Assembly: GCA_028874365.1 (NCBI GenBank)
Contig: JAPPJZ010000076.1
Span: 1 to 62,263, forward strand
Source of the DNA: Chloroflexota bacterium
Lineage (GTDB): Bacteria; Chloroflexota; Dehalococcoidia; Bin125
Reading direction: 5' to 3'
DNA length: 62,263 nt
Shown here: positions 28,520 to 40,334 of the stretch, one piece after another
Layout: each line of letters opens with the position of its first letter
Numbering within the stretch: position 1 is the stretch's first letter
Position numbers and translations under genes: made by a program
The notes under the pieces: model-generated
What the model saw: only the letters and a program-made list of their open reading frames with translations
Told to the model about the DNA's origin: nothing
Database searches by the model: none

Positions 28520-29374
28520 ATGACGACAACTGAAGACGGTTGGGCCCGCCCTGAGCTGATCTGCGAGACGGAGTGGCTCGCGGAGCACATCGACGATGAG
28601 GACCTGGTCGTGTTGGACTGCGACCGGATCGACGCGTACCTCCGCCTGCACATCCCCGGCGCGGTCTGGTCGCTGTCGCGTTACTGGAAGACTGAGCCGC
28701 GCGACGACTCTCAGATCTACGGGATGTCGGACCCGGAGCAGTGGGCCCAGCTCGTCGGGCGCTTGGGCATCACCCCGGATACGACGGTCGTGGGTTACGA
28801 CGGGTCCGGTTCGCTTTACGCCGCGCGGGTCTGGTGGACGTTCGATCGGTTCGGTCATACCAACTTCAAGGTCCTCCACGGCGGGTTGGACAAGTGGTAC
28901 GCGGAGGGGCGTCCGCTGTCGCGTGAGAACTTCCGTCCGCAGGCTGTGGAGTATCCGACGCCGCCGGCTCCGCATGACGACTCGATCTGCCGGCTGGACG
29001 ACATTCCCGGCGCGCTTCAGGACGACGATCACGTGTTCTGGGACGTGCGCTCGGACGGCGAGTGGACCGGCGCGAACAAGCGTGGCACTCAGCGCGGCGG
29101 CCGCATACCCGGAGCCGTGCATCTGGAGTGGCTAGAGACCCTGGACAGCCCGGTGCGGACGCTGAAGCCGCCGGCCGAGTTACGAGGGATGCTGGCGGAT
29201 CTGGGGATCACTCCAGACAAGACGGTGACGACCTATTGACAGGGCGGCATCCGTGCGGCGCACGGATACTGGCTCCTGCAACTGCTCGGCTACAACCAGA
29301 GCCGCAACTACGATGCGTCGTGGCACGAGTACGGCAACGCGCTGGAGCACCCGATCGAGACTCCGGGCGACTAG
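28520..29374 (+). CDS. Two-domain rhodanese, selenoprotein candidate with UGA at codon 240
   Basis: A 284-residue thiosulfate or 3-mercaptopyruvate sulfurtransferase, if UGA is read as selenocysteine. The start is the ATG at 28520 with GAGGGGA upstream. The inactive N-terminal rhodanese domain (VVLDCDRIDAYLRLHIPGAV) and the active C-terminal domain (HVFWDVRSDGEWTG) are complete. In the active-site loop TTY-UGA-QGGIRA the UGA at 29237-29239 replaces the catalytic Cys. The frame then continues with AHGYWLLQLLGYNQSRNYD to TAG at 29372-29374. Total length is normal for the family only with the readthrough. A perfect hairpin starts 10 nt after the UGA. It would transfer sulfur to cyanide or thiols through a selenol. 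It ends in a CTAG shared with the convergent gene. Confidence 0.92.
29237..29267 (+). promoter_or_regulatory. Putative bacterial SECIS hairpin of the rhodanese
   Basis: After the UGA, ATCCGTGC (29249-29256), a GGC loop (29257-29259) and GCACGGAT (29260-29267) form a perfect 8-bp stem. The loop starts 18 nt after the UGA with G in the first position, as in known bacterial SECIS elements such as fdhF. The hairpin codes for GIRAAHGY, part of the conserved active-site helix. Confidence 0.75.
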
Positions 29375-30615
29375 CCCTCGAGGACGGCAGCCAGCGCCGC
29401 TTCGACCTCGGCCAGTGGCGCGAAGGCTTCGAAGCGCGCGACGACGATGCCCTCGGCGTTGACGACGAAGGTCCACTCGTCGGTGTGGAGGCCCCACTCT
29501 TCGAGGATCGGGGTCTCGATCGGCTCCTCGCCGAAGCGCACCTGCTCCGGGTTTTCGTAGAGGTCGACGTGGATGTAGTTGGCCTGGTCACCGAAGATGG
29601 TGCGCACCTCCGATAGCACCTCGGCCTGGGGCCCGCAGAAGGCGTTGGTGCAGAAGCCGGGCGACGCGAAGACCACGACGAACGGCTTGTCCGCTTCGAG
29701 TGCGTCGGCCAGCGAGATGATGTAGAGGCCGGGATCGGGCTCCTCGCCGGTTGAGAGGTCGGAGATGTTGGGCACGTCAAGCAGCGTGCGGCTGGCCGAT
29801 GGCGGCGCCGCGTCGCCGATCGACGGCGCCAAGGTGTCGACCGGGATGTCGACGGCGACGCCGATGTCGGTGAAGCCATCCGCGGTGGGGATATGCAGGA
29901 TCAGATTCCAACGGCCCACGGCGGCGAAGTCGACTGCAGTGACATGGAAGCCGCGAATGCCATCGGGGAAGCGTGAGAACCGAGCCACGACCTCCTGCAT
30001 CTCGCCCGGCGCGTCGGCCGGCACGACGGTGATTCTCATGGCCGGCGACTCGACCAAGCCGTCCGGGCCTTCAATCACGAAGGAGATGCGGTGGATACCG
30101 GGTGAGAGGTCGGGCGTGCCCAGCGAGATGGTGTAGCCCTGCTCGGAGACATAGACGGGATAGCCGGAGTCGCGCAGCAGCTGCAGCCGCGGGCTGAGGT
30201 CGTCGTAGTTGGCCTCAGTGAGGATGCCGACCGACATGCCCGGCGACATGCCGCCCATGCCATCGTCATCCTGCGGTTGTTCCTGCATGGTGTCGGCCTG
30301 GGACTGCTGCTCCTGAGCAGTCTCGGCGGCCATCTGTTGTTGCTGTTGTTGTTCGGCGGGTTCGGCTGCCGCTGTGGTGCTGCGCTGCGGCGATGTGGCC
30401 GTCGTCGAACCGGAAGCGGTGGTCCCAGCCGAGGACGATTCGGCGGTCGCCGTCTGTTCCTGCTGGACCGCTTGCTGCTGTTCCTGGTCCTGCTGTTGGT
30501 CGTCCGAGGTTGCGGCGCATCCAGACAACATCAGGGCTGCCGCCGCCGCAAGCGCGATCAGCACCAACGGCCGCCGCCCGAAGCTCAGCAACGGGTTGTT
30601 ACTTCGTGAAGCCAT
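29371..30615 (-). CDS. Lipoprotein with Gln-rich linker and thioredoxin-like domain
   Basis: A 414-residue exported lipoprotein. A signal peptide (VLIALAAAAALMLSG) ends in the lipobox LSGC, with the lipid anchor at about Cys33. A ~90-residue tract very rich in Gln, Ser and Thr follows, then a beta-rich domain (about 125-265, containing YPVYVSEQGYTISLG and MRITVVP). The C-terminal thioredoxin-like domain has the redox motif GFCTNAFCGPQ, a C-x4-C pair of the Sco/AhpC-like group seen in Chloroflexota lipoproteins. It may reduce or oxidise thiols on the outer face of the membrane. Its stop overlaps that of the rhodanese. GAGGGA precedes the ATG. Confidence 0.85.
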   Translation of the reverse strand: MASRSNNPLLSFGRRPLVLIALAAAAALMLSGCAATSDDQQQDQEQQQAVQQEQTATAESSSAGTTASGSTTATSPQRSTTAAAEPAEQQQQQQMAAETAQEQQSQADTMQEQPQDDDGMGGMSPGMSVGILTEANYDDLSPRLQLLRDSGYPVYVSEQGYTISLGTPDLSPGIHRISFVIEGPDGLVESPAMRITVVPADAPGEMQEVVARFSRFPDGIRGFHVTAVDFAAVGRWNLILHIPTADGFTDIGVAVDIPVDTLAPSIGDAAPPSASRTLLDVPNISDLSTGEEPDPGLYIISLADALEADKPFVVVFASPGFCTNAFCGPQAEVLSEVRTIFGDQANYIHVDLYENPEQVRFGEEPIETPILEEWGLHTDEWTFVVNAEGIVVARFEAFAPLAEVEAALAAVLEG

Positions 30616-30669: not shown

Positions 30670-32304
30670 CTACTCACCACCTACGTAAGAGCCGAACGTG
30701 AACGCAAAGATGCGGAACTGGTCTGAGTCGGAACGCAGTTTCAGCTCATGTTCCGACCATTCGGGCAGGAACACCAGGCGGTACAGGTCATTCTCGGTCA
30801 CGCGGATGTAGGAGCGCCCGTCGTCGTCCCACTGGATGTGGGAGCCGGCCTCGTCGGGCTGTAGCCAGCGTCCGTCCAGTTCGACGTAGACGTTGAACGG
30901 CTCGCCGTCCTCGGCGACGGTCAGGACGACGTTGGCAGTGCGTCCGCGGATCAGGAGGGCGATGTAGTCCTCAAGATCGTCGGTCTCGCGGGCGTGGACG
31001 ATTGATTCGCGATCGGTCTCCCACAGGCCCTGCAAGTACCAGAGGTTGTGTTTTCGGTCAGAGGTCGGGATATCCGAGTAGAACGTGGGCACGAGCGGTC
31101 CGGCGAGGAAGTAGGCTTCCTGACCGGCGTAGGGACCGCCACTGCCGTTGTTGCGACTCCAGCCGGCGTACAGTTCGCGGGTCTGTCGACCCGGGGTGAC
31201 GCCTCGGGTGGGCACGGCGACATCAACGCCGAAAGGGACGTCAGACAGGTCCTTGCCGACCGCCTCGAGCGCCGCGCGGATCGCGACCTCGGTCTCCTCG
31301 TAGTCACCTTCGCCGATGTGGTCGTAGCGGACGCCCATGGGCGATCCGTCGGGCGTCGGGCCGATCAGGAACTTTCGAGGCCACCATCCCGAGCGTCCCT
31401 GCAGGGCGCGCCAGGTTCGCCAGTCGTTGTCGACGGCGACGAGATATTCGATGTCGTGCTCGGCGATGGCGGCGCGGACGTTCTCGATGCGTTCCTCGAA
31501 TTCGAACTCGGGCGTATGCACGCCGATGATGACGAGACCGTGGTCGCGGTACTTCTGGTCCCAGGACGTCAAGAATGGCAAGGTCCGCACGCAGTTGATG
31601 CAGGTGTAGGTCCAGAAGTCGATCAGGACAACGTTGCCCTTGGCGAGTTCGAGCGCGACCGATGTCTCGGCGCCGTTGAGCCAGGCATTGATCCCGACGA
31701 GGTCACTGACTGTTGCCAGGGCGCTAATCTCTTCGGCGCGCAAGCGCAGGCGGTCTGTTTCGCTGGGCTGGCTTTGCTCTTGCTGTTGAGCGGGTTCGTC
31801 CTGCTGGTCGGCCTGTTCGGCCTCCGGCTGAGGCTGTTGTTCCTGTTGCTCGGCCGAGTCGTCGGCCTGCGCTTGCTGCTGATCCTGTTGCTGATCCTGC
31901 TGCTGGGCGGGTTGGTCTTGCGCCTGTTGCGGCTGAGCTTGCTCCGCGGGCTCAGCCTGGGCCTCGTCTCGCTGTTGATCGGCAGCCGCGACGGTCGCCT
32001 CTTCGTCTTGCTCCTGCGCGCCGCTCTGCGTTCCGCGAGCGTCGTTCGACTGGCGTGACTGTGCGTCTTGGGGTCCCTGATCTTCTTCGTCGTCGGAGAC
32101 TGCGGCTGACTGCTGGTCCTGCGGCTCGGTTCGCTGCGGTTGAGTCTGAGATTGGTCGTCTGACTGCGCCGTCTGGCTTGCGCTGCTGGACTCCTGAGTC
32201 TGATCCGGTTGCGACTGTTGGTCGCTCGAGGTGCAAGCCACGAGGAGTGCCGTCGCCAGCAGGAGTGCCGCGATGCCCGAACGGGCGATTTTGAGGTGTT
32301 TCAT
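30670..32304 (-). CDS. Lipoprotein with Gln/Asp-rich linker and DipZ-like thioredoxin domain
   Basis: A 544-residue lipoprotein. The signal (GIAALLLATALLVAC) gives the lipobox LVAC, then about 150 residues of almost only Gln, Ala, Glu, Asp and Ser. A thioredoxin domain begins near 195 with the CxxC motif DFWTYTCINCVRTLPF, and is followed by a beta-sandwich (about 380-540). The FWTYTCINC motif and the extra C-terminal domain match the periplasmic part of mycobacterial DipZ. The CcdA-like membrane part of DipZ is absent, so electrons must come from another protein. It is a divergent neighbour of the nudix gene side and lies upstream of the other thioredoxin-like lipoprotein in the same direction. 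Confidence 0.87.
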   Translation of the reverse strand: MKHLKIARSGIAALLLATALLVACTSSDQQSQPDQTQESSSASQTAQSDDQSQTQPQRTEPQDQQSAAVSDDEEDQGPQDAQSRQSNDARGTQSGAQEQDEEATVAAADQQRDEAQAEPAEQAQPQQAQDQPAQQQDQQQDQQQAQADDSAEQQEQQPQPEAEQADQQDEPAQQQEQSQPSETDRLRLRAEEISALATVSDLVGINAWLNGAETSVALELAKGNVVLIDFWTYTCINCVRTLPFLTSWDQKYRDHGLVIIGVHTPEFEFEERIENVRAAIAEHDIEYLVAVDNDWRTWRALQGRSGWWPRKFLIGPTPDGSPMGVRYDHIGEGDYEETEVAIRAALEAVGKDLSDVPFGVDVAVPTRGVTPGRQTRELYAGWSRNNGSGGPYAGQEAYFLAGPLVPTFYSDIPTSDRKHNLWYLQGLWETDRESIVHARETDDLEDYIALLIRGRTANVVLTVAEDGEPFNVYVELDGRWLQPDEAGSHIQWDDDGRSYIRVTENDLYRLVFLPEWSEHELKLRSDSDQFRIFAFTFGSYVGGE

Positions 32305-39976: not shown

Positions 39977-40334
39977 GGGGACGAAAGGGTTCGACAGCGG
40001 TTGATTTCGAGTTGCTGCGTGCCGAGCTGGCGTCACTCGTTAAACGTCGCCACCACTCCCTAATTGGCGAATCCAGGGAACTCGCCCTCGCCGCCTAACC
40101 GCGGTGACGTCGCTCCTCAGCCGTAACCGAGTCGGAGAGGACGCGGCGCCGACACACTCGGTTGCTCGTCGCGGGCGGTCGGGACCGCGACGCTAAGACC
40201 AACTCCACTCACCCAGCTGTAACGGTCGGCCGACGCGCCGGCGGCCGGGGACAACACAAGCGACGGCTACGCACGTAGACGCGGCCCGCGACGATCGTCT
40301 GGACGGGGAGTTCGATTCTCCCCCGTCTCCACCA
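39977..40334 (+). ncRNA. ssrA: tmRNA (transfer-messenger RNA)
   Basis: The 5' end GGGGACG pairs with CGTCTCC of the 3' end, followed by discriminator A and encoded CCA (40332-40334). The T arm reads GGGGAGTTCGATTCTCCCC and the 5' part has the conserved AAAGGGTTCGACAGCGG. The coding part runs from the probable resume codon GGC at 40066, 89 nt from the 5' end as in other tmRNAs, to TAA at 40096-40098, giving the tag GESRELALAA. The LAA end is the normal protease signal. A short GC palindrome follows at 40346. The 181-bp gap after smpB carries no gene; it contains an imperfect CACACATG/CATATGTG dyad at 39873-39897. Confidence 0.97.

Follow-up and report, generated by a model that had tools for sequence, protein, structure and literature searches.

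The locus at positions 28520-29374 of the window, the whole stretch of 62,263 nucleotides analysed here, from an uncultured Chloroflexota bacterium, raises the question of whether a TGA triplet that occupies the catalytic codon of a rhodanese-type sulfurtransferase terminates the protein or is decoded as selenocysteine (Sec). The gene very probably encodes a selenoprotein, a two-domain sulfurtransferase of the COG2897/SseA type in which the active-site UGA would be read as Sec. We regard it as a genuine selenoprotein gene because the UGA falls on the catalytic codon, the genome contains the Sec machinery, Cys and UGA codons alternate among homologues, and a hairpin is tied to the UGA forms. 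The relevant features of the window are as follows.

28520-29374, plus strand: predicted Sec-containing two-domain rhodanese, 284 residues with Sec at 240, translated with TGA as U
28568-28903, plus strand: N-terminal rhodanese domain, residues ~17-128, from the Pfam stretch and structure elements
28994-29335, plus strand: predicted C-terminal catalytic rhodanese domain, residues ~159-272, with the active-site loop U-QGGIR, from alignment to 1uar and 1e0c
29237-29239, plus strand: in-frame TGA, codon 240, probably read as Sec; TGA in 69 distinct relatives, TGC/TGT in 39, no other codon
29240-29371, plus strand: coding part behind the UGA, 44 codons, under selection as protein
29249-29267, plus strand: putative bacterial SECIS core, ATCCGTGC / loop GGC / GCACGGAT, from its fold and its conservation in Sec forms
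29371-30615, minus strand: convergent neighbour of 414 aa, a predicted lipoprotein with a thioredoxin-like end, adjoining in the genus by tblastn synteny; its character is read from the sequence
30670-32304, minus strand: TlpA/ResA-like thioredoxin-fold lipoprotein with a CINC motif (PF17991), from Pfam, NCBIfam and synteny

The reading frame starts with ATG at 28520 and ends with TAG at 29372-29374, which shares bases with the stop of the convergent ORF 29371-30615, read as CTA on the plus strand and as TAG on the minus strand. The sole in-frame TGA coincides exactly with the catalytic-cysteine codon, within the peptide ...DKTVTTY-U-QGGIRAAHGYW... An ORF call with table 11 and without readthrough ends at 29239 and yields 239 residues, and gene callers that treat UGA as a stop truncate these proteins to that length. 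The codons 3' of the UGA evolve as a coding sequence under purifying selection; within the genus, 763 synonymous and 229 non-synonymous codon differences were counted behind the UGA, compared with 7382 and 1843 before it, with minus-strand loci left out of the counts. The earlier note was right that the frame continues for 44 codons to a shared CTAG stop and gives 284 residues, as indicated by the frame itself and the overlap with the convergent ORF; its claim that UGA replaces the catalytic Cys of the QGGIRA loop is likewise borne out by the alignment of 29237-29239 with the loop Cys of 1uar and 1e0c.

The product is predicted to be a two-domain rhodanese of the COG2897/SseA type, with the catalytic residue in the loop of the C-terminal domain. 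PF00581 was matched twice in the 284-residue protein (E 8.6e-33), and the best PDB matches were bacterial two-domain rhodaneses, 1uar (E 4.8e-42) and 1e0c (E 1.6e-41), in which residue 240 aligns with the catalytic loop Cys (YCRIAERS and HCQTHHRS, respectively). The N-terminal domain carries Asp94, in the loop VGYDGSGS, at the position of the nucleophile of the active domain. The best NCBIfam match, the SseA model NF008557 (E 2.6e-29), fell under its equivalog cut-off. An AlphaFold2 model (pLDDT 94.1) is closest in fold to the rhodanese 1uar (TM 0.88), and TM-scores of 0.70-0.88 were obtained against the Cys-containing two-domain thiosulfate/3-mercaptopyruvate sulfurtransferases of T. thermophilus (1uar), A. 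vinelandii (RhdA, 1e0c), M. tuberculosis (CysA2, CysA3 and SseA) and E. coli (SseA, 1urh). These enzymes share both domains and the position of the catalytic loop with the window protein, but have Cys where it would have Sec. The subfamily is also distinguished by its loop, U/C-QGGIRA, as opposed to loops of the CRIGERS and CGGGIAA types, such as occur in Cys paralogues in the genus.

Among the 19 further genomes examined from the order, 18 have an orthologue, with 60-91% identity and one TGA in each; the Cys paralogues share ~31-36% identity and contain no TGA. Across 108 distinct relatives, codon 240 is TGA in 69, at identities down to 37%, and TGC or TGT in the remaining 39. Counts of internal stops in the tabulated relatives were set aside, since in L120, L121 and L125 the single TGA or TAG is the terminal stop and the site itself is TGC. 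The Sec forms from another class of the phylum (G493 and G570) have an identical hairpin core; Sec forms and Cys-type relatives occur in the same genomes there (L165, L188 and L174).

Directly behind the UGA lies a hairpin with arms at 29249-29256 (ATCCGTGC) and 29260-29267 (GCACGGAT) and the loop GGC at 29257-29259, comprising eight Watson-Crick pairs with 17 nt between the UGA and the loop. Its minimum free energy is -21.6 to -27.3 kcal/mol, with z-scores of -1.6 to -2.7 under dinucleotide shuffling. When the same peptide was recoded at random with synonymous codons, a stem of this length arose in 0.63% of draws and in the exact register in 0.58%. When the window was scanned blindly for a coding-like TGA followed by a bSECIS-like stem, only the codon-240 site had more than 5 bp. 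The published bSECIS model specifies a loop of 3-9 nt with G in the first two loop positions, a stem of 4-16 bp, a spacing of 16-37 nt and a minimum free energy of at most -7.5 (PMC13188914, Fig. 2), and the hairpin, with 8 bp, a GGC loop, 17 nt and -21.6 kcal/mol, lies within all of these limits. The Rfam model SECIS_1 gave no match on the genome or at the site, and none in 14 control genomes either. The hairpin core GTGCGGCGCAC has eight matches in the genome, none of which, apart from the codon-240 site, is combined with a correctly spaced TGA and a plausible frame.

The strongest evidence against a chance hairpin is its conservation across genomes. Of the 69 Sec forms, 58 retain all of the inner six pairs; none of the 39 Cys forms does (Fisher 9.8e-20). 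Pairs are compensated in the Sec forms, position 15-29 being CG in 55, GC in five and AT in three, and both arms have changed together in several lineages (GCGTGC/GCACGC, TACGTGC/GCACGTA, CGCGGGC/GCTCGCG). In Sec forms, the five in-stem codons correspond to the consensus codon 305 times where codon use predicts 142; in Cys forms, the observed and expected figures are 73 and 69. Since both the stem and the codon constraint are kept in Sec forms and absent in Cys forms, the hairpin follows the UGA rather than the protein sequence. Eleven Sec forms lack a perfect hairpin in the +17 register; in five of these, 7-8 bp are paired at +20 around a loop of four bases. The sequences with this alternative layout (L111, L113, L116, L117 and L126) are mutually related. 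The perfect 8-bp stem with its GGC loop and its likeness to a SECIS element, both put forward in the earlier note, are upheld.

The assembly to which the window belongs, as a single contig, spans 3.12 Mb and is 96% complete, and all of the genes that the earlier note proposed to look for (selA, selB, selC and selD) are present in it: SelA (E 1.5e-126), SelB and SelD, both above the cut-off, and tRNA-Sec with the anticodon TCA (70 bits). The selD gene (L020 about 1532-1534; G000:C18:83058-83999) also contains an in-frame TGA (RCGG-U-GSK), and its product is likely a second selenoprotein of this organism. Within the class, tRNA-Sec was detected in 60 of 68 genomes with a Sec form and in 209 of 325 others (Fisher p 5e-5); the eight Sec-form genomes where it is missing are all MAGs, 72-90% complete. 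Judging from these genes, the hairpin and its conservation, SelB carrying Sec-tRNA(Sec) would recognise the hairpin 3' of the UGA and direct the insertion of Sec.

Two readings without selenium have to be weighed against this one. The UGA could be a real stop or an artefact, produced by a nonsense mutation or a sequencing error, with the rest of the frame dead, and a plain table-11 ORF caller does stop the gene at 29239. However, a TGA common to 69 distinct sequences of such divergence, purifying selection on the codons behind it and the linkage of the hairpin to TGA forms make this explanation extremely improbable. Given these relatives, resequencing is very unlikely to turn the codon into TGC or TGT, and the earlier opinion that a chance nonsense mutation was very unlikely agrees with the 69 TGA relatives and with hairpin frequencies of 58/69 versus 0/39. 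Reading of UGA as another amino acid, either under a reassigned code (UGA = Trp) or by a nonsense suppressor, would also leave the frame open, yet the only alternative residue at the site is Cys, never Trp and never the random residue that a homologue comparison might have revealed. Moreover, TGA serves as the terminal stop in orthologues from the same genus, the genome has tRNA-Sec, and the hairpin is specific to TGA forms, so we give this reading practically no credence and retain Sec insertion.

Sec-containing rhodaneses of COG2897 are not a new kind; they constitute a predicted selenoprotein family known since 2005, when they were listed, with three sequences, among 15 new families in a survey of the Sargasso Sea, in which the SECIS element of AACY01016424 was drawn (PMC1088965). 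They were reported again from GOS in 2008 (PMC2398784), and later reviews give the members MQG53192.1 (PMC9312934) and MCY3690685.1, the latter as 'form 4' with the motif UxxG (PMC13188914). Because its U-Q-G-G fits this motif, the window gene is assigned to the same family; it shares the two-domain SseA-type organisation, a single Sec at the position of the active-site Cys and a SECIS stem with G in the loop right behind the UGA, and it differs in nothing of kind, the likeness to AACY01016424, MQG53192.1 and MCY3690685.1 being one of description and motif. The statement in the earlier note that Sec rhodaneses had appeared in selenoproteome surveys was thus correct (PMC1088965, PMC2398784, PMC9312934, PMC13188914). 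Its view that a full-length two-domain Sec form would be notable needs a correction, as such COG2897 proteins have been on record since 2005. Other Sec-containing rhodaneses, namely the PspE forms of COG0607, form 3 with CxU and the rhodanese/DsbD fusion TsoB, also combine a rhodanese domain with Sec but differ in the family, fusion or Sec motif to which they are assigned (PMC9312934, PMC13188914). What is new here is the occurrence of the Sec form in some 20 groups of family rank within the class and in a second class of the phylum, together with a rooted tree that favours repeated replacement of Sec by Cys.

Rhodaneses with a catalytic Cys operate through a known persulfide cycle. By analogy, the Sec selenolate of the window protein would attack a sulfane donor, such as thiosulfate, 3-mercaptopyruvate or a persulfide, and the sulfur would be held as an enzyme selenosulfide (E-Se-S-) before being handed to a thiol acceptor. 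Alternatively, Sec may be inserted and serve mainly in something other than sulfane-sulfur transfer, such as selenium or perselenide carriage or peroxidase-like redox chemistry with the thioredoxin-like neighbours. Selenoproteins are for the most part considered redox enzymes (PMC9312934), and thioredoxin-like genes do adjoin the Sec form in two families: both lipoprotein genes are syntenic beside it in the genus, and the gene of the 30670-32304 type also adjoins the Sec forms of a second family (L086, L093, L102, L103, L109, L110 and L114). However, these neighbours resemble exported lipoproteins, the rhodanese itself has no evident export signal, and a direct partnership between them is therefore uncertain. 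The neighbours also vary across clades, the protein retains both rhodanese domains and its active-site loop in intact form, and the closest folds are those of rhodaneses and thiosulfate sulfurtransferases. We therefore consider another main role unlikely, though far less so than the readings without selenium, and prefer sulfane-sulfur transfer by a Sec-containing enzyme.

The convergent neighbour at 29371-30615 has no Pfam match at 1e-3. Among the neighbour proteins of the relatives (n = 102), GlutR was found 11 times, Thioredoxin_10 seven times and every other domain at most three times; genomic context was rejected as a guide to function, as the neighbours are not conserved past the family level. 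Further along the window, a tmRNA gene is located at 39977-40334 on the plus strand, with the tag peptide GESRELALAA.

The history of the site was examined on a tree of 112 sequences, from which the site itself was excluded. Because the tree search was short and the Cys forms are only a sample, the rates are rough. The Sec and Cys states require 11 changes, at least eight of which are forced by well-supported branches, and the grouping of all Sec forms in one clade is rejected (p-AU 1e-72). Forbidding Sec-to-Cys change in a two-state model gives a far poorer fit than the free model (lnL -59.3 versus -40.5), while forbidding Cys-to-Sec change gives a fit about equal to it (-41.0 versus -40.5). 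Sampled histories contain 8-17 Sec-to-Cys and 0-5 Cys-to-Sec branches under a model without gene transfer, and the root state has P(Cys) 0.77. SECIS relics gave no overall signal of direction in the Cys forms, in which the in-stem codons show no excess over expectation. Individual Cys forms (L146 and L147) are suggestive of such relics. L118 and L147 are sisters on short branches, one a Sec form with an intact hairpin and the other a Cys form with a decayed 3' arm, and both have an unusually long C-terminal tail of 97-105 residues past the site.

On balance, we lean slightly towards a scenario in which Sec is old in this Chloroflexota subfamily, perhaps ancestral, and was replaced by Cys some 8-17 times, with loss of the SECIS element each time. 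A 2026 review describes the change from Sec to Cys as a rare event, confined for the most part to FdhA and SelD (PMC13188914); if the scenario is true, the subfamily would be a clear counter-example. A family sparsely documented from metagenomes gains genome context, with about 70 Sec and about 40 Cys members, all from a single phylum. These represent natural Sec/Cys pairs in one enzyme, in which strong constraint on the SECIS element is confined to the forms that use Sec, and offer a testable case of frequent Sec-to-Cys replacement.
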